Source: Oscillospiraceae bacterium (GTDB lineage: Bacteria > Bacillota > Clostridia > Oscillospirales > Ruminococcaceae). Taken from it: DNA of 42,066 nucleotides. The stretch's first letter is position 1, and each line of letters opens with the position of its first letter. This document shows, in pieces, positions 1,975 through 37,860 of this stretch. The notes beneath the pieces are model-generated. The model made no database searches, was not told the origin of the DNA, and saw nothing but the letters and a program-made list of their open reading frames with translations. The translations under genes and the position numbers were made by a program. Location: the NCBI GenBank assembly GCA_021201135.1, contig JAJQGT010000022.1:5001-47066 (forward strand), given 5' to 3'.

Positions 1975-2204
1975 CGCCCCGTCTTGACATGTTTATGTCA
2001 AAACAAGGGCGCAGTGCGCGGTTCCACCTTGATTTATTACTCATGACTTTGCTTGCAAAGTCTTATCCCCTATCGCAGGATATGCGGTGCGCTCCTCACG
2101 CACTGCTCCGGGGCGGTGTCCATCATCCCAAGCCGTGCCCTGCTTCCACCACCGCAAGGCTCTCTTTGCCGACCAAAGACAGGCTTCCCCATCAACGCTT
2201 TACT
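1975..2204 (-). promoter_or_regulatory. T-box riboswitch leader of thrS
   Basis: The minus-strand leader carries the T-box core TGGAACCGCGC (complement of 2016-2026), which binds the acceptor end of uncharged tRNA. It is followed at 1975-2011 by a GC-rich hairpin (GCGCCCTTG paired to the segment ending GGGGCG) and a T run, a typical intrinsic terminator. Upstream leader sequence contains structured stem I-like segments. A candidate specifier triplet ACC (Thr) is the complement of 2115-2117, in the context GGACACCGC; this triplet is my inference from position, not a computed fold. The expected effect is read-through into thrS when threonyl-tRNA is scarce. Confidence 0.92.
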
Positions 2205-2285: not shown

Positions 2286-2314
2286 TTGACAGGAGTCGTT
2301 TTGTGTGGTATAAT
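2286..2314 (+). promoter_or_regulatory. Consensus promoter of the small-peptide gene, cassette 1
   Basis: TTGACA at 2286-2291 and TATAAT at 2309-2314 with exactly 17 bases between: both hexamers are full consensus. Transcription would start near 2321, about 45 bases before the peptide start codon. Confidence 0.85.
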
Positions 2315-2337
2315 GTCGATGGTGAGAGGTGGTCACT

Positions 2338-2356
2338 CTTTCCCTGCGAAGGGAGG
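2338..2356 (+). promoter_or_regulatory. Shine-Dalgarno-masking hairpin of cassette 1
   Basis: In the mRNA, TCCCT (2341-2345) pairs with AGGGA (2350-2354) around the loop GCGA, a GNRA tetraloop. Flanking U-G pairs can extend the stem into GGGAGG, the ribosome binding site of the small peptide. The same stem with loop GTGA is present in cassette 2, so the fold is conserved while the loop varies within the GNRA rule. Confidence 0.65.
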
Positions 2357-2365
2357 TGGACGCTG

Positions 2366-2467
2366 ATGGAGATTATTTCGATTTTATCGTTAATCTTGGA
2401 CGTAATAGCTATTGTTATTGCTGCCTTCACTATCGGTTACACCGTTGGTAGTAACCAGAAGAAATAA
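2366..2467 (+). CDS. Small hydrophobic membrane peptide, candidate type I toxin (cassette 1)
   Basis: A 33-codon frame starts with ATG at 2366, nine bases after GGGAGG. The peptide begins MEIISI, continues as one hydrophobic helix to about residue 27 with a single Asp, and ends in the polar tail GSNQKK. A homologue of 30 residues is encoded at 16114-16206, sharing MEIISI at the start and AF-IG--VG then K at the end. A longer in-frame start at 2276 lies upstream of the -35 box and is rejected. The layout (strong promoter, masked ribosome binding site, converging small RNA) is that of type I toxin-antitoxin loci such as fst/par or txpA/ratA. I do not recognise the peptide itself, and toxicity is inference. 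Confidence 0.7.
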   Translation: MEIISILSLILDVIAIVIAAFTIGYTVGSNQKK

Positions 2468-2569
2468 CCGCACCTGATTTTGTCAATCAAGTGCGATTAC
2501 AAATTTCATTGTCAATGACTTTGGAAAGAGTGGTCGCTACCTGAATTGCCGTTCAGGTAACCTCTCACC
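2468..2569 (-). ncRNA. Converging small RNA, candidate antitoxin (cassette 1)
   Basis: Reading the minus strand from the promoter at 2576-2604, a transcript of about 100 bases would begin near 2569. It opens with GGTGAGAGGT, folds TACCTGAA against TTCAGGTA, closes with ACCACTCTTTCC, and ends at the hairpin of 2469-2495 followed by a T-rich stretch. No start codon with a ribosome binding site is present. It converges on the peptide gene and overlaps its 3' end. Its 5' end resembles the 5' end of the peptide mRNA rather than being its complement, so pairing would run through the shared 3' hairpin and partial GGUGAGAG/CUCUUUCC contacts. A homologous RNA exists in cassette 2. Confidence 0.65.
2469..2495. 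terminator. Shared hairpin between the converging transcripts, cassette 1
   Basis: CGCACCTGATT (2469-2479) pairs with AATCAAGTGCG (2485-2495) around a five-base loop. On the minus strand it is followed by GGTTATTTCTT, which is U-rich enough to stop the small RNA. On the plus strand the tail is weaker. Cassette 2 has an equivalent hairpin at about 16083-16108. Confidence 0.6.
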
Positions 2570-2575
2570 ACTTTT

Positions 2576-2604
2576 ATTATAACCCATCGCTGTTGATTTG
2601 TCAA
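2576..2604 (-). promoter_or_regulatory. Consensus promoter of the converging RNA, cassette 1
   Basis: On the minus strand TTGACA (2604-2599) and TATAAT (2581-2576) are separated by 17 bases. It lies just past the end of the GH115 gene and points at the peptide gene. Confidence 0.85.
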
Positions 2605-2612
2605 CAGCTTTT

Positions 2613-6454: not shown

Positions 6455-6595
6455 AAACCCCTCAGTCAGCCGCTTCGCGTCTGCCAGCTCCCCTTTCAGG
6501 GGAGCCTGTATGTGCCTCGTACAAACTTTCAAAGGGGCAAAAAAAGCCTCCCCTGAAAGGGGAGGGGGACCATGCGAAGCATGGTGGAGGGGTTT
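6455..6595 (+). repeat. CCCCTCAGTC...GGAGGGG repeat, copy 1
   Basis: An element of about 140 bases opens AAACCCCTCAGTCAGCC, contains AGCTCCCCTTTCAGGGGAGCC and later CCTCCCCTGAAAGGGGAGG, and closes GGTGGAGGGGTTT. The inner palindromes and the outer CCCCTC/GAGGGG ends can fold into one large structure. It lies between the GH94 gene and the NrdD-like gene; the GH94 stop codon TAA is formed at its edge. Unlike the other copies, it does not point toward an adjacent start codon. Confidence 0.85.
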
Positions 6596-9052: not shown

Positions 9053-9184
9053 ACCCCTCCACCGGCTTCGCCGGTCCCCCTCCCCTTTCAGGGGAGGCTA
9101 TTCTCCTTCTCTCAAAGCCTCTGATGGAGGCAGTTAAAGGCTCCCCTGAAAGGGGAGCTGTCGCCGAAGGCGACTGAGGGGTTT
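9053..9184 (-). repeat. CCCCTCAGTC...GGAGGGG repeat, copy 2
   Basis: Read on the minus strand it opens AACCCCTCAGTCGCCTTCGGCGACAGC (split here as CCCCTCAGTC and GCCTTCGGCGAC), contains both CTCCCCT/AGGGGAG palindromes, and closes CCGGTGGAGGGG just before the GH94 ribosome binding site. It lies between the predicted promoter and the start codon, so it would be transcribed as leader. Confidence 0.85.
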
Positions 9185-15497: not shown

Positions 15498-15980
15498 TTG
15501 AAGATACCTTCCAGAATCAGAAGTAAGCTTCCATTGATAATTTCGGCGGCGATTGTTATAATCACATTTGCCGCCCTGTTTATATTTTCGGGACAGAACG
15601 GCGAAGAGTCCTCGAAGCTGAGCGGTGTAATCGTCGACTTCGTGATGAAAATATTTAAGCTTGAGACCGACGCCGAGACCGTCAGCACGGTGACCTTCAT
15701 CGTCCGTAAGCTTGCACACTTCACGATATTCGCAATACTCGGCGCAAGTTTATACAGCTTCACCCGTTCCCTGCTCCTCAAGCGTCCCTACATCTCGACG
15801 CTGATTATCGGTCTCGCCGCGGCTACACTGAACGAGCTACAACAGCTCACATCCGTCGGCAGAACCGCCAGCCCCCGGGACGTTGCGATAGACTTCTCGG
15901 GAGTAGTGGTCGGCAGTGCGATAGCCCTCGGGATTGCGAGATTAATTTCCCACCGGCGGGAAATAAAAAAAGACTGTTGA
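15498..15980 (+). CDS. VanZ family membrane protein
   Basis: A 160-residue protein with four predicted membrane helices. The VanZ signatures RKLAHFTIFAILG (about 70-82) and NELQQL followed by GRTASPRDVAIDFSG (about 112-137) are present. VanZ-like proteins are linked to teicoplanin resistance and to cell-surface operons; the exact biochemical role is not settled. The start is TTG at 15498, set by GAGGA about eight bases upstream; no in-frame ATG fits. Its TGA stop overlaps the -35 box of the next transcript (small RNA of cassette 2). Confidence 0.88.
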   Translation: MKIPSRIRSKLPLIISAAIVIITFAALFIFSGQNGEESSKLSGVIVDFVMKIFKLETDAETVSTVTFIVRKLAHFTIFAILGASLYSFTRSLLLKRPYISTLIIGLAAATLNELQQLTSVGRTASPRDVAIDFSGVVVGSAIALGIARLISHRREIKKDC

Positions 15981-16005
15981 CAAAACAGCCGTAATCGGGT
16001 ATAAT
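15977..16005 (+). promoter_or_regulatory. Consensus promoter of the converging RNA, cassette 2
   Basis: TTGACA at 15977-15982, 17 bases, TATAAT at 16000-16005. The -35 box overlaps the stop codon of the VanZ gene. Confidence 0.85.
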
Positions 16006-16011
16006 ATAGAT

Positions 16012-16113
16012 GGTGAGAGGTTACCTGAACCGTCATTCAGGTAGCGACTACTCTCCCGCAGTAATAACTTTGAGAAACATAATCGCACTTGACGCTAATC
16101 AGGTGCGGTTATT
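16012..16113 (+). ncRNA. Converging small RNA, candidate antitoxin (cassette 2)
   Basis: The predicted transcript starts near 16012 with GGTGAGAGGTTACCTGAA, folds TACCTGAA against TTCAGGTA (loop CCGTCA), then GCGACTACTCTCCC, and ends at the hairpin CGCACTTGACGCTAATCAGGTGCG near 16084-16107 (arms CGCACTTGA and TCAGGTGCG) followed by GTTATTCTATTT. The homologous RNA of cassette 1 has the same order of elements. No coding frame with a ribosome binding site is present. It overlaps only the 3' end of the peptide gene. Confidence 0.65.
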
Positions 16114-16206
16114 CTATTTATTTCGGCTTTCGCCTACGGCAATTCCAATAGCAAAGGCAGTCAGGAGAAGCTCCAAGACCTCCAAGATTATAGAAATAAT
16201 CTCCAT
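16114..16206 (-). CDS. Small hydrophobic membrane peptide, candidate type I toxin (cassette 2)
   Basis: A 30-codon frame on the minus strand from ATG at 16206 to TAG at 16114, with GGGAGG nine to ten bases upstream. The peptide starts MEIISI, contains a hydrophobic helix with two Glu on one side (ILEVLELLL), and ends AVGESRNK. It aligns along its whole length with the 33-residue peptide at 2366-2467 after a three-residue gap. A different overlapping frame of 63 codons (16118-16309) spans the promoter and shows no family features. As in cassette 1, a consensus promoter, a masked ribosome binding site and a converging RNA surround it. Confidence 0.7.
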   Translation of the reverse strand: MEIISIILEVLELLLTAFAIGIAVGESRNK

Positions 16207-16214
16207 CGGTACCA

Positions 16215-16233
16215 CCTCCCTTCACAGGGAAGA
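16215..16233 (-). promoter_or_regulatory. Shine-Dalgarno-masking hairpin of cassette 2
   Basis: On the minus strand TCCCT-GTGA-AGGGA (complement of 16217-16230) forms a five-pair stem with a GNRA tetraloop that includes the first bases of GGGAGG, the ribosome binding site of the peptide. Cassette 1 has the same stem with loop GCGA. Confidence 0.65.
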
Positions 16234-16255
16234 GCAACCACCTCTCACCGCTGAA

Positions 16256-16284
16256 ATTATAACATATATTTTGTTGCTTGTCAA
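16256..16284 (-). promoter_or_regulatory. Consensus promoter of the small-peptide gene, cassette 2
   Basis: Minus strand: TTGACA (16284-16279), 17 bases, TATAAT (16261-16256). Both hexamers are full consensus. The mRNA leader again begins GGTGAGAGGTGGT. Confidence 0.85.
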
Positions 16285-19244: not shown

Positions 19245-19248
19245 ATTT

Positions 19249-19302
19249 AGCCTCCCCTGTCAAGGGGAGGGGGACCGTCGGCGAAGCCGATGGTGGAGGG
19301 GT
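19249..19302 (+). repeat. CCCCTCAGTC...GGAGGGG repeat, half copy 3
   Basis: Only the right half is present: AGCCTCCCCTGTCAAGGGG, then AGGGGGACCGTCGGCGAAG and CCGATGGTGGAGGGGTT. It ends nine bases before the AGGAGG of zapA and points toward it. The inner hairpin CGTCGGCGAAGCCGATG differs in sequence from other copies but keeps its pairing. Confidence 0.8.
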
Positions 19303-27687: not shown

Positions 27688-27710
27688 ACTGTCGCCAGAG
27701 GCGATTTATG

Positions 27711-27778
27711 TAGGGGCGGATATCATCCGCCCGTTCCCCATCGCCTACAGCTTTTCGGGCGGATAATATCCGCCCCTA
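27711..27778. repeat. 68-bp palindromic intergenic repeat, copy 2
   Basis: Two 23-bp palindromes (TAGGGGCGGATATCATCCG and CCCG at 27711-27733, and the mirror form at 27756-27778) flank a 22-base spacer with no similarity to that of copy 1 at 82-150. The arms match copy 1 in reverse orientation. It lies 25 bases before the ftsE start codon. Confidence 0.75.
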
Positions 27779-27803
27779 CTACGCACTAACTACGGAGAAT
27801 AAA

Positions 27804-29382: not shown

Positions 29383-29495
29383 ACCCCTCAGTCAGCCTTC
29401 GGCTGACAGCTCCCCTTTCAGGGGAGCCTATTAGCGCCTCTCCAAAAGCCTCCCCTGAAAGGGGAGGGGGACCGGCGAAGCCGGTGGAGGGGTTT
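29381..29495 (+). repeat. CCCCTCAGTC...GGAGGGG repeat, copy 4
   Basis: Full copy of about 115 bases: AACCCCTCAGTCAGCCTTC and GGCTGACAGCTCCCC at the left, AGCCTCCCCTGAAAGGGG in the middle, and ACCGGCGAAGCCGGTGGAGG GGTTT at the right. It starts within the ftsX stop codon and ends a few bases before AAAGGA, the ribosome binding site of the M23 gene. Confidence 0.9.
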
Positions 29496-30819: not shown

Positions 30820-30951
30820 AAACCCCTCAGTCAGCCTTCGGCTGACAGCTCCCCTTTCAGGGGAGCCTTTGATTGGTTCTATAAAACTTTTGTAATAAGC
30901 ACAAATAGCCTCCCCTGAAAGGGGAGGTGGCACGAAGTGCCGGAGGGGTTT
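30820..30951 (+). repeat. CCCCTCAGTC...GGAGGGG repeat, copy 5
   Basis: Left end AACCCCTCAGTCAGCCTTC as in copy 4, a longer and unrelated centre, then AGCCTCCCCTGAAAGGGG and a divergent right hairpin GGCACGAAGTGCC before GGAGGGGTTT. The sequence TTTCCGAAAGGA follows, as in copy 4, supplying the ribosome binding region of the next gene. Confidence 0.9.
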
Positions 30952-34109: not shown

Positions 34110-35228
34110 ATGAATATTCTCAAAAGAATTCTTATCATTGCATTGTCAATCTGCATCTTTTCATCGTGTACAGGCAAGAGTGCAGATGTTACCGATAACG
34201 GTGGCGTAGTAATCTTTGAAGCTTCTGAATTTTTATATGCCTGCGAGGGAGATTATGTAACTTATGAGGAAGTCCAAGAAAAATACCCTGACAAGACTGT
34301 CTTGGTCTGGCAGCTGCACTTTGGAGCGGCAAATATCTGCACGGAGGAGATAAACGAGTATCTTGACAGTCTAGGGAAGGACTATGCGGTGTGCTTTTTG
34401 CCGGAGTCAATATATGGCGACGAATATATCGACATAGTAAAAGATAAGATTGCAGATGGCGAGCAGATTGATCTTTTATTTACTGGCTATAAAGTCAATG
34501 AGTCTGATTCATGGGGACTGTCGCCATATACGAGCTTTATAGATGATGGGCTTCTTATCGCCCTTGATGGCTACCTTGCGGACACCGAAATCGGTCAGGA
34601 GCTTTATGATCTTATGCCCGATGGATACTGGGAATCCGTTTCGATAAACGGGAGCGTTTATGGATTTTGCGCGGATTTGAATTATTTGAGCAGTGACACC
34701 TATATCGAATACAATAAAGAACTTGTAACTGAGTACGGCTTTGACACGGAGGTATCCATTTTTGAGCAGGAAGAAACAGTTGCCCAAATAGTCGAGACGG
34801 AGGACTGCGTGGGGCTCATAATCGGAAATCCCTCGCCCTACTATATTTTGCATTCAGATACGCCAAGCCTGGGCGGAGCGGCTTATTACGACTCAGAAAG
34901 GGACAGCATCAGGAGCGTCTTAGAATGTGAAGAATATACAGATTATCTGAAAGACTGTTTTGAGTTCCTGCATTCTGGCTTAGCCGTAAGTGATTCATCC
35001 AACACAGCAAAATCATCGGTATTCGCAAGAATCATAAATGCACATGGAGATTTTATCTCAGATCAGGGTGTCTGGAACGGACAGACGTTTGACGTGATAA
35101 GAGTAAAAATCAACGACGCATTCTCCGACTTTCTTTCAGACTTGGAGAAGAGACTTGATGATGCAGGATTACAAACGCTTCTGGATGAAGCAAACAGGCA
35201 GTACAGTGAGTGGGAGGAGGAAAAATGA
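34110..35228 (+). CDS. Solute-binding-like lipoprotein, internally shortened paralogue
   Basis: A 372-residue lipoprotein with signal peptide and lipobox FSSC (Cys20). YPDKTVLVWQ, LYDLMPDGYWESVSINGSVYG and the Y-I-E-Y-N-K-E-L-V segment are typical of family 1 extracellular solute-binding proteins. It is a tandem paralogue of the next gene. Compared with that gene it lacks about 130 residues: FDVIRVKIND here is joined directly to FSDFLSDLEKRLDDAGLQ. The C-terminal tail (QTLLDEANRQYSEWEEEK) is intact here. The ribosome binding site AGGAGA lies eight bases before the ATG. The stop overlaps the next start (ATGA). No sugar-import permease is nearby, so the ligand and partner are unknown. Confidence 0.85.
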   Translation: MNILKRILIIALSICIFSSCTGKSADVTDNGGVVIFEASEFLYACEGDYVTYEEVQEKYPDKTVLVWQLHFGAANICTEEINEYLDSLGKDYAVCFLPESIYGDEYIDIVKDKIADGEQIDLLFTGYKVNESDSWGLSPYTSFIDDGLLIALDGYLADTEIGQELYDLMPDGYWESVSINGSVYGFCADLNYLSSDTYIEYNKELVTEYGFDTEVSIFEQEETVAQIVETEDCVGLIIGNPSPYYILHSDTPSLGGAAYYDSERDSIRSVLECEEYTDYLKDCFEFLHSGLAVSDSSNTAKSSVFARIINAHGDFISDQGVWNGQTFDVIRVKINDAFSDFLSDLEKRLDDAGLQTLLDEANRQYSEWEEEK

Positions 35229-36730
35229 AAGGAATACTTATAAGCATCATTTCATTTGCAATTATATTTGCTATTCTTACTTCCTGCGGAACGCATGACG
35301 ACGCCGGGAGCGAAGCTACTGATGAAGACTCTTCTTCAAAAACATTCACGACATTCTGGATGGCTGGCGGCAGTGATTATGTCTCCTATGATGAAGTGCA
35401 GGAAATGTATCCGGACAAAACTGTACTGGTCTGGCAGGTGCTTTTCGGTACCGGGATTGTTCCTGTTGAAGAAATCAACGAATATCTTGTAAGCTTGGAA
35501 AAGGACTACGTCGTATGCTTTTTGCCGCAGTCACTTCAGACTTCGGAAAGCGATGAACGGTACATTGACACTATCATCAGTAAGATTGAAAATGATGAAC
35601 CTGTCGATATAATTTATGCGGGAGGTATGCTCTCAGACGACTCATGGGGAATCTCTCCTTATACAAGCTTTGTTGAAGCCGGATTATTTGAAAATCTTGA
35701 CGTGTACCTGTCTCGAACAGAAGCAGGTCAGAAGCTTTATGATCTTATGCCGGAGAACTATTGGAAGTCATTGACGTTTGACGGCTCGGTGTATGGAATT
35801 GACAATAATCTGAGCTGCTTATCTGTGTATACCTACATCGAGTATAATAAAGAGCTTATCGAAAAATATGGCTTTGACACGGAAAAGTCTGTATTTGAAC
35901 AAAAGGACTTAGTGGAAGAAATAGTTAGCGCGGAGAATTGCATCGGGCTTTTGACCGGCTTGGCAGCTCCTTGGGCTGATTTCCTGTCTGATCCTTATGA
36001 TTTTGCTTCCGTCGGTTACTATGACGAAGCTACAGACAGCATTATAAGCGTTCTTGAAAATCAGGAGTACGTCTCGTTTCTGCAAAACTGCTTCTCGTTC
36101 TATCAGGATGGTCTTGCTTATACCTCGATTGCACAGGGTGATACCAGTTACAAGTCTGGTGTATTTGCAAACATAATTGAAACTCATGGAGAACCGATGG
36201 ATAGCCTCGCATCGTTCGGTATGTCAACATATGAAGTTATCAGATGCAAGCTTGATGATATAGGCTACAGGAAATCTCAGACTGCTACTGGCGTGTGCGC
36301 CTACTCAAAGCATAAAGACATGGCTTTTGACCTTCTTGCCACATCTCAGACAGATGAATACCTGAACAATCTTCTGTCATTTGGGACGGAGGATGATTAC
36401 ACTATGGAGAATGGGATTGTTACAGTCTATGAATCCGTAAGTACAATGCGATTTGCAAATTGGCTTATTTGCTATCCGGCTTACGAGGAAATGACTTATG
36501 GTGAGCATTTTGTTCTTGAAGCTGACGCTATTTCTGAATTGATGTCCACCATTCCCGCAAACTCATCTCTCGAATTTGCTTTTGACGATTCAGCAGTCAA
36601 AAGCGAAGTCAAGGAACTCCGCTCGATAATGCTTGTTGATATAAATGATATGATAGTTTCGGATTCCTATGAAACATTCTCCGACTTTCTTTCAGACTTA
36701 GAGAAGAGACTCGATGATGCAGGATTATAA
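35225..36730 (+). CDS. Solute-binding-like lipoprotein, C-terminus cut by a nonsense change
   Basis: A 501-residue lipoprotein with lipobox LTSC (Cys21) and the same fold as the previous gene: YPDKTVLVWQ, ISPYTSFVEAGLFENLDVYL, YWKSLTFDGSVYG, YIEYNKELIEKYGFD. The full-length middle region absent from the first paralogue is present. Its TAA stop at 36728-36730 replaces the CAA (Gln) codon found in the first paralogue. After this stop the frame continues with a tail homologous to that of the paralogue, ending at a TGA that overlaps the next gene's ATG. So the ancestral protein was about 17 residues longer and translationally coupled. The start ATG follows GGGAGGAGG. Confidence 0.85.
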   Translation: MKGILISIISFAIIFAILTSCGTHDDAGSEATDEDSSSKTFTTFWMAGGSDYVSYDEVQEMYPDKTVLVWQVLFGTGIVPVEEINEYLVSLEKDYVVCFLPQSLQTSESDERYIDTIISKIENDEPVDIIYAGGMLSDDSWGISPYTSFVEAGLFENLDVYLSRTEAGQKLYDLMPENYWKSLTFDGSVYGIDNNLSCLSVYTYIEYNKELIEKYGFDTEKSVFEQKDLVEEIVSAENCIGLLTGLAAPWADFLSDPYDFASVGYYDEATDSIISVLENQEYVSFLQNCFSFYQDGLAYTSIAQGDTSYKSGVFANIIETHGEPMDSLASFGMSTYEVIRCKLDDIGYRKSQTATGVCAYSKHKDMAFDLLATSQTDEYLNNLLSFGTEDDYTMENGIVTVYESVSTMRFANWLICYPAYEEMTYGEHFVLEADAISELMSTIPANSSLEFAFDDSAVKSEVKELRSIMLVDINDMIVSDSYETFSDFLSDLEKRLDDAGL

Positions 36731-36780
36731 ACGCTTCTGGATGAAGCAAACAGACAGTATGCTGAATGGAGGGATTCTGA

Positions 36781-37860
36781 ATGAAAAAGATTGTTAAGAT
36801 AATAGCGTTGGCTTTATCTCTTATGATGCTCGTGTCCTGCGTAGCAAACAGCTCAGGCAATACTGACAGCGAGCCATATCAGATAAGTCGGTCGAGGAAT
36901 TTTTACAGCATAGGCGAGTTTTATCTGAATGGCAATATTCTTTACTTCGGTGACTTTAAATCGCTTGTATCGGTTCCCATCTGCTCAAAGCCGAACTGTA
37001 CTCATTCAGGCGAGGAATGTGCGGCATACGGTTTTGCCGATTGTGCCATGATTGTTTATGATGGGGATTCTCACCTTTACTACTTTACAAACGAAATCAA
37101 GCAGGAAAGCGGTGAGATGTTTTATTTATGCGAAATATGGAAATGCTCGACTGACGGAACGGAAAGAGTCAAGGTGGCAAGTCTGCCCGACGGGCTGACA
37201 ACAATCGACTCCACACACATGGTTCTTGACGGCGACACGCTGTATTTCTGCACGAAAAACATCGGGTTCAGTGCTCTCGGAATCCAGACCGACAGCACAT
37301 CCGCACAGCTATATTCATTCTGTCTCTCAAACAGTGAGCTTGAAGAAATAATGGAAATATGCTCTGGCTACAAAGCCTCCGCCGACCCAAGAGGAATTTT
37401 TAACGGTCAGCTCTACGTCACCTATCAGGCGTATGACCAAGAATATACTTCGGAAGAGATAGCTGAATTAAGCACATCATTCCGCCACGAAGCAACCATT
37501 AATCTTGAAACCAAAGAGATTTCAATCATAGAAGAAACGCCTATCAAGGTGACAAGCCGGTATCTTGTGACAACCGAGGAAGACGGGCTTATGATTACCG
37601 AAGACAACGGAGCTGTTCACCACGCCGAGGGCTTCATTCCCTACGAGCTTTACGGGTACGAGATATACGGAAGCATACTTGCAAGTACATGGCTTGGACT
37701 TGCCTATGACATCGAAACCGATGAGTATCTTTCTTTCTCCTCGGCAAGCGACGGCTATCGACTTCTTACATATTCGGGCGGCGACTATGTACTTTCCGCC
37801 GCTGACGATAGCGGGGTTAAGAGCTACAAAAAGGCAGCCTTTTCGGAACTGTTCACATAA
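36781..37860 (+). CDS. Lipoprotein of unknown function with CSKPNCTH motif
   Basis: A 359-residue lipoprotein with lipobox LVSC (Cys20). Near residue 73 lies CSKPNCTHSGEECAAY, a cysteine motif I associate with a group of Clostridial lipoproteins of propeller-like structure. Repeated beta-rich segments with aromatic residues (GDSHLYYFTNE, GDTLYFCTK, GQLYVTYQAY) are consistent with a beta propeller. GGAGGG lies seven bases before the ATG. It follows the two solute-binding-like lipoproteins in the same operon. No enzymatic motif is visible. Confidence 0.8.
   Translation: MKKIVKIIALALSLMMLVSCVANSSGNTDSEPYQISRSRNFYSIGEFYLNGNILYFGDFKSLVSVPICSKPNCTHSGEECAAYGFADCAMIVYDGDSHLYYFTNEIKQESGEMFYLCEIWKCSTDGTERVKVASLPDGLTTIDSTHMVLDGDTLYFCTKNIGFSALGIQTDSTSAQLYSFCLSNSELEEIMEICSGYKASADPRGIFNGQLYVTYQAYDQEYTSEEIAELSTSFRHEATINLETKEISIIEETPIKVTSRYLVTTEEDGLMITEDNGAVHHAEGFIPYELYGYEIYGSILASTWLGLAYDIETDEYLSFSSASDGYRLLTYSGGDYVLSAADDSGVKSYKKAAFSELFT

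Follow-up and report, generated by a model that had tools for sequence, protein, structure and literature searches.

The cassette at positions 2286–2604 of the window (the whole 42,066-nt stretch of DNA analysed, part of the 2.33-Mb, 32-contig genome G000) is very probably a type I toxin-antitoxin module, chromosomal and of the BsrG/TxpA/Hol_Tox kind. Beyond what the original prediction had claimed, sequence comparison shows that it is one of many such cassettes per genome, with cores that appear to have been exchanged between sites. The type I reading of that prediction gains support from the anatomy of the locus, from purifying selection on its peptide and from more than 110 relatives, with the actions of toxin and antitoxin staying putative. 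Among the Gram-positive type I modules described so far, many are solitary loci borne by prophages. In this case a chromosomal repertoire of 8–21 copies occurs in one clade with little sign of phage carriage; what is new and of interest is this expansion, in which orthologous sites hold different cores. Such natural core swaps offer paired material for finding which RNA parts decide cognate recognition, and for asking why a chromosome accumulates type I modules.

Layout of the cassette and its peptide

The two converging promoters of the original prediction each match consensus at 12 of 12 positions. A strict pattern (consensus hexamers on both strands, converging, with 250–280 nt between the −10 boxes) occurs at 14 places in the 2.33-Mb genome, against none for a reversed control pattern, which also gave 0 in each of 60 related genomes; the promoter pair is thus confirmed as real and far above chance. 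The 33-codon gene behind its Shine-Dalgarno sequence, and an antisense transcript of about 100 bases predicted to end in a hairpin just past the peptide stop, were likewise recovered at the expected places (Table 1). Neighbouring genes are thrS and a glycosyl hydrolase family 115 gene, both on the minus strand, and an alanine racemase gene adjoins a second cassette of the family in the window. No match to Rfam 15 families at the gathering score was found in the window, the best match on cassette 1 being rli28 (20.5 bits against a gathering score of 45).

Table 1. Features of the two cassettes, in window coordinates
Feature	Position	Strand	Basis
Toxin promoter TTGACA-N17-TATAAT, TG before −10	2286..2314	+	12/12 consensus positions
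Segment A, 5' tip GGTGAGAGGT of toxin mRNA	2321..2330	+	sequence, tip coupling; start predicted 7 nt past −10
Segment B of toxin leader, GGTCACTCTTTCC, complementary to tail of same mRNA	2331..2343	+	sequence, MFE fold
Hairpin TCCCT-GCGA-AGGGA, closing part of Shine-Dalgarno	2341..2354	+	sequence, folding
Shine-Dalgarno GGGAGGTGG	2351–2359	+	read from sequence
P0001, 33-codon peptide gene, putative membrane toxin, MEIISILSLILDVIAIVIAAFTIGYTVGSNQKK	2366..2467 (ATG 2366, stop 2465–2467)	+	ORF; group pN/pS 0.23
Terminator-like hairpin of antisense RNA, just past peptide stop	2464..2500 (read 2500–2464)	−	hairpin scan
Antisense (putative antitoxin) RNA, ~105–115 nt, complementary to toxin mRNA 3' UTR	2464..2569	−	both ends predicted
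Segment B' in toxin mRNA tail, partner of B	2523..2535	+	sequence, folding
Hairpin TACCTGAA...TTCAGGTA separating B' and A', in both RNAs	2538..2559		sequence, folding
Antisense RNA 5' tip GGTGAGAGGT (read 2569–2560); + strand is A', complement of toxin tip	2560..2569	−	sequence, tip coupling
Antitoxin promoter TTGACA-N17-TATAAT	2576..2604 (read 2604–2576)	−	12/12 consensus positions
Terminator-like hairpin of toxin mRNA, then T6; encloses antitoxin −35	2589..2608	+	hairpin scan
Second cassette of the family	15977..16284	−	promoter-pair pattern
Peptide P0002 of second cassette, MEIISIILEVLELLLTAFAIGIAVGESRNK	16206–16117	−	ORF

Two features of the flanks deserve mention. A T-box-like leader lies upstream of thrS (2002–2204, minus strand; 59.4 bits, under the Rfam gathering score of 93), and TTGATTTGTCAA forms a direct repeat flanking the cassette (2228–2239 and 2593–2604), one copy in the −35 region of the thrS promoter and the other in the antitoxin −35. 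The empty thrS site of genome G009 carries one copy of this repeat, a possible trace of insertion or loss.

In 113 distinct cassettes from 12 genomes a short frame stands behind a Shine-Dalgarno sequence, the frames having been chosen partly by these features. Among 114 best frames (one unrelated gene included), 111 score above 1.5 for hydrophobicity over 17 residues and 113 match the Shine-Dalgarno consensus at 5/7 positions or better, both properties having partly guided the choice of frame. In these and the following counts, related cassettes are not independent of one another. The peptide sequences are diverse, and in five groups of them pN/pS lies between 0.19 and 0.38 (11–115 interdependent pairs each), by which measure the peptides are under purifying selection and the frame is a real gene product.

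As originally noted, the peptide matches no named toxin: P0001 is without a hit in Pfam or NCBIfam at E values up to 10, a PADLOC search yielded no family at E values up to 1, and none of the family peptides tested reaches a Pfam or NCBIfam curated cut-off. Weak matches of P0001, queried alone, to Rz-like spanin families in PHROGs (E = 0.022 and 0.03, the best obtained there) would suit a phage lysis peptide. Such scores are weak evidence for a short hydrophobic segment, however, the strict pattern occurs in only one viral contig, and both window copies sit beside the thrS, GH115 and alanine racemase genes, so that we give this origin next to no credence.

Five cassette frames are interrupted. 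In the VSILEV/VSVLEV cassette (GTG start; L054, L073, L095, L086, L036/L096) a palindromic insert of ~23 nt follows codon 14 and breaks the frame in five genomes of the genus (five species), leaving promoters and antitoxin in place; the toxin of this form may have been silenced and the cassette retained for the sake of the antitoxin, or the explanation may be a stranger one. Its persistence in five genomes despite the interruption, together with the conservation of peptides whose role as toxins is putative, could also point to a small regulatory or membrane-modulating peptide controlled by an antisense attenuator. The dedicated antisense RNA with its consensus promoter, and an architecture common to loci that an excerpt of PMC7430163 describes as toxic in B. 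subtilis, argue for a toxin instead and make a purely regulatory role unlikely.

Equal 5' tips and the predicted folding of the toxin mRNA

The two RNAs of cassette 1 begin with the same ten bases, GGTGAGAGGT, as the original prediction had remarked in setting the locus apart from the complementary repeats of fst/par. In a set of 100 non-redundant cassettes, the 24 bases past the two −10 boxes share a longest common word of 9.58 nt on average, compared with 5.90 ± 0.20 nt for shuffled partners (maximum 6.56 of 2000), all registers having been searched in real and shuffled partners alike; on this evidence shared tips are the rule and not a coincidence. The tips change together between cassettes (GGTGAGAGG, GATGAGAGG, AGCAAGAGAG, AGCAAGAGGG, GACATGAGGA, AGTAGAAGAG), and tips common to both RNAs also occur in cassettes of goat and roe-deer MAGs, mostly with one T/C difference.

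Converging promoters, a short membrane peptide, an antisense RNA and a hairpin just past the stop codon would also be expected of an Fst/par-type module, whose RNAs meet through complementary direct repeats and a bidirectional terminator that they share. In Fst/par the direct repeats make both RNAs complementary at their 5' parts; in cassette 1 such repeats are absent and the tips are identical, the toxin mRNA carries its own terminator-like hairpin past the antitoxin start, and P0001 lacks a Pfam match up to E = 10. An Fst/par module is therefore very improbable, and of the two architectures originally proposed as models, that of txpA/RatA proves closer in kind, the identical tips speaking against the other.

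Since the RNAs converge, the antisense RNA starts opposite the toxin mRNA tail and the 5' tips are equal, the tail of the toxin mRNA is complementary to its own 5' end. Segment B, likewise short, is common to both RNAs too, and on the antitoxin side a hairpin parts it from A. Over 48 distinct tip pairs the toxin 5' tip forms 92.3% standard pairs with its own tail, against 72.0 ± 1.5% in shuffles, a contrast inflated by a register that was fixed by similarity and not re-optimised in the shuffles. When the mRNA is folded from its inferred start to its terminator, the probability of tip-on-tail fold-back exceeds 0.5 in 107 of 109 cassettes (mean 0.906), compared with 90 of 218 for swapped tails (mean 0.399). 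Duplicates by leader sequence were dropped from the tip-sharing and folding sets, and index 55, the unrelated gene in G043, was left out of the tip-sharing, folding, duplex-energy, terminator and Shine-Dalgarno counts; the G040 and RGIG cassettes were left out of the core-exchange, pN/pS and tip-pair counts.

Which strand selection acts on is less clear-cut. Fold probabilities favour the toxin strand in 74 of the 109 cassettes, and interior tip differences lean the same way, 10 being compatible with the toxin strand (wobble), 2 with the mirror strand and 11 with neither (p = 0.039 for 10 versus 2). The toxin mRNA is nevertheless not proven to be the selected strand, because the mirror strand also folds back (99 of 109 cassettes, mean 0.805) and duplex energies carry no strand preference (53 versus 56 of the 109). 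Fold-back z values for two of the four goat-gut cassettes, L144 and L185, are −0.7 and −0.3.

A tail-gated Shine-Dalgarno of the hok/aapA kind was also considered, and folding does not support it: closure is predicted to be equal with and without the tail, the thermodynamic model leaving the Shine-Dalgarno unpaired at 0.24 in the full-length mRNA and 0.21 without its tail (55 of the 109 cassettes, every second one).

The anatomy suggests the following mode of action. A plus-strand mRNA (~2321–2610) would encode the 33-residue peptide, a predicted one-helix membrane protein with a charged tail and a putative growth-stopping toxin, with the Shine-Dalgarno held in a local hairpin and the 5' leader (A, B) predicted to fold back onto the mRNA's own tail (B', hairpin, A'). 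The antisense RNA would start opposite A' and be fully complementary to the mRNA 3' UTR, and its binding would form a long duplex removed by RNase III, by analogy with txpA/RatA and bsrG/SR4, for which such removal is stated in excerpts of PMC3531473 and PMC7430163. In our own interpretation the fold-back probably keeps the free toxin mRNA closed at both ends and long-lived, and toxin would be made only once the antitoxin runs out. In the genus the module has multiplied to 8–21 copies in 11 of 31 genomes, its cores apparently exchanged between sites.

Relation to known type I systems

The antisense overlap of the 3' part of the toxin mRNA that marks the BsrG/TxpA type is present in silico, as promoter and terminator-like sites, and it is BsrG/TxpA/Hol_Tox, not Fst/par, that appears to be the closest known kind, because the fold-back is also predicted in bsrG and in three Hol_Tox loci. 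In bsrG/SR4 of phage SPbeta, a short membrane peptide is encoded by an mRNA of ~290–300 nt. Its leader, GTACATAAAGTTTGCTC, and a tail with a hairpin are predicted to pair, the parts following one another as in the family (duplex z −5.4), and the opposite strand gives an antisense RNA that pairs with the mRNA at the 3' ends (PMC7430163, in excerpt). This leader-tail helix may be the helix P1 named in a figure legend of PMC6562991. The differences are that SR4 (180 nt) starts past the toxin terminator, so that its 5' end is not a shared tip, that bsrG is prophage-borne, and that its peptides align weakly with those of the family.

The Hol_Tox loci (PF16935) are few: peptides above the cut-off were found in 5 of 79 genomes, an even sample of the class, giving 8 loci, and one or two matches occur in each of 7 of the 79 genomes, as against 8–21 here. 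Seven of the loci were examined (L238 was left out), with L235, cut by a contig end, outside the fold-back z set. L232, L233 and L234 share the compact plan with an antisense promoter at the tail, as well as common words of 8–13 nt (found by scan in L233 and L234, by eye in L232), and their fold-back z values run from −6.2 to −7.8 versus mononucleotide shuffles. These and the other duplex z values are generous, since the shuffles are mononucleotide and the stretches include promoters. No fold-back was seen in L236, L237 and L239 (duplex z near −1), despite complementary GAGGTGTTACC/GGTAACACCTC visible by eye in L236. Equal 5' tips on converging RNAs can be searched for independently of peptide homology, and this signature already connects the family with Hol_Tox loci in other genomes of the class.

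The peptides themselves are another matter. Those of Hol_Tox bear an MSxYEALSLMIAFG-like signature, and the PF16935 gathering score of 23.3 is reached by none of 19 family peptides in one test and none of 10 in another, the best score being 13.2 bits (E 0.085); hhalign of the family profile against Hol_Tox peptides gives a weak match, with 36% probability over 9 columns. As peptide membership does not hold, the module is best regarded as working like BsrG/Hol_Tox, and probably of the same broad kind, without being a Hol_Tox protein. A Hol_Tox peptide compared with phage records gave no match.

Further systems were compared through published descriptions. For txpA/RatA, of the B. subtilis skin element, excerpts of PMC3531473 give an antisense overlap of ~120 nt at the 3' ends and a terminator ~270 nt from the start, both akin to the present layout, and PMC7430163 (in part) gives a 59-residue toxin and a 222-nt RNA, which differ from it. 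In aapA/IsoA and hok/Sok the mRNA is also closed by long-distance 5'-3' pairing, and aapA is also multicopy (both from part of PMC6733600); there, unlike here, the tail hides the Shine-Dalgarno until trimmed. The type I modules of C. difficile, as partly described in PMC6563280, resemble the family in being clostridial, convergent, present in 13 copies per genome and mostly equipped with cognate-only antitoxins, and differ in that their toxins have 34–53 residues and several are located in prophages or next to CRISPR arrays; the portion of that description used here mentions neither tip sharing nor core exchange. Among the matches listed in a search of open-access titles and abstract openings, none describes the family, tip sharing or in-place exchange of type I cores.

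A chromosomal repertoire and the probable exchange of its cores

Within a collection of 60 relatives, its own genome included, the strict pattern is found in 13 genomes: 11 of the 31 belonging to the genus, G040 from another family, and G043, where it falls on an unrelated gene. A profile of 19 peptides matches 12 of the 31 genus genomes: the window's genome gives 21 matches, ten others give 8–20 each and G024 gives 2. A stricter pattern that requires purine tips was met in 2 of 245 genomes sampled evenly across the order (G040 and the genome of the window), and the purine-tip kind of pattern in 60 DNA stretches of a species collection of 84,980 genomes, a set from which the window's own genome may be absent. 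Of these stretches 54 lie in ten MAGs of the genus (Oscillospiraceae bacterium / Ruminococcus sp.), one in G040 (termite-gut Oscillospiraceae) and five in two goat-gut MAGs and one roe-deer MAG. An antitoxin-only pattern gave 0 matches in viral contigs, as a poor probe that recovers 7 of 112 of the family's own cassettes. A terminator-like hairpin of the toxin mRNA lies over the antitoxin −35 in 91 of 113 cassettes, any terminator-like hairpin occurring in 9.6% of 500 random 70-nt windows; an antitoxin terminator was found in 58 of 113 (140-nt background 22%).

Distant cassettes with other peptides (MEEYITWDDLIKIAMLVIAVITCFRNKKR; MSVMEVLTLILVITNIITLVVNICNKKR) were seen in goat-gut MAGs (L144, L161, L185, L168), a roe-deer MAG (L191) and a viral contig (L231), with tips common to both RNAs, the goat toxin-side tip coming after a GGCGAAAGCC hairpin. 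The termite-gut MAG G040 holds five cassettes (L123, L134–L137) of the same layout, with unrelated peptides, e.g. MKNKILKWIIIIIIVLILMILFSIDVN, and partly shared tips.

Genomes compared at single chromosomal sites often differ in the core that occupies them. The thrS site is occupied by the MEIISILSL core in the window's species and in G030, by a MTFTEV core in G006 and G014, and by yet another in G001 and G027; in G020 and G029, cassettes of the MEIIS type stand next to thrS between flanks of lower similarity, and in G009, G002 and G025 the site is without a cassette. Between G000 and G014 the flanks at thrS agree at 245 of 250 positions on the left and 231 of 249 on the right, and 16 of the 17 bases in the antitoxin spacer are kept along with the −35 box on the left, with cores only as alike as random cassettes. 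At the site of the second cassette G014 likewise has another core (MEVADILQ), with both promoter spacers identical (17/17 on each side). More generally, 56 cross-genome pairs at 23 sites have both flanks orthologous; core identity is below 70% in 26 of them (random cassettes having a median of 54%), with flanks averaging 89–90%, both flanks at least 90% in 12 of the 26, and more than one core type at 10 of the 23 shared sites. Conversely, cores more than 85% identical form 99 pairs at sites not joined by the two-flank test, 69 of which have both flanks at background (30 with cores at least 90% identical; 8 of these 69 pairs lie inside a single genome). Although the genomes are MAGs, the 30–40-base repeats are shorter than usual reads, which makes misassembly an improbable cause of the cross-genome pattern.

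The promoters themselves bear on how such differences arose. At least one promoter spacer is kept (at least 80% alike) in 16 of the 26 swapped pairs and both in 3, against 6.6% and 0.4% of 6159 different-site pairs; by side, the toxin spacer is kept in 7 and the antitoxin spacer in 12 of the 26, with backgrounds of 1.3% and 5.7% of the 6159. In six aligned swapped pairs divergence begins inside the promoters or tips. These comparisons suggest that whole cores (both tips, peptide gene and antitoxin) have been exchanged between sites, with crossovers falling in the promoters or tips in the cases inspected. A more specific proposal, that chromosomes of the genus maintain docking sites where whole cores with matching tips replace one another through recombination within the converging promoters or the tips, is tentative and somewhat doubtful, being weakened by the retention of a spacer in only 16 of the 26 pairs and of both in 3, on account of which some core differences may be independent insertions, not exchange within promoters. 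If it were true, each species would hold its own shuffled set of up to ~20 silenced toxins, matching tips would be a pairing code that must move together, and phages or plasmids able to neutralise single cores would perhaps be the driving force.

Inverted ends, a high copy number and the existence of both filled and empty sites could also come from a mobile element of the MITE kind, or from independent insertions recurring at favoured sites, with the peptide incidental; so could the presence of one core at unrelated sites and the 10 of 26 swapped pairs in which neither spacer is kept. Such an origin is quite unlikely, however, as the peptides are under purifying selection, spacers seldom alike between different sites are often kept at swapped ones, change starts inside promoters or tips in the six aligned pairs, and the sole direct repeat seen at an insertion is the 12-base one at thrS.

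The window holds other repeats. Short palindromes such as CTCCCCTGAAAGGGGAG recur at 6485–6571, 9073–9162, 19248–19275, 29405–29493 and 30844–30933, often as two close by and facing, some with GTCAGCC-TTC-GGCTGAC companions, and look like dispersed hairpin repeats. Paired palindromes GGGCGGATAATATCCGCCC occur in inverted orientation at 81–151 and 27710–27780. A 112-nt direct repeat (35119–35230 and 36675–36786) is 87% identical at a spacing of 1556 nt, and a further 66-nt repeat lies at 34344 and 35468.
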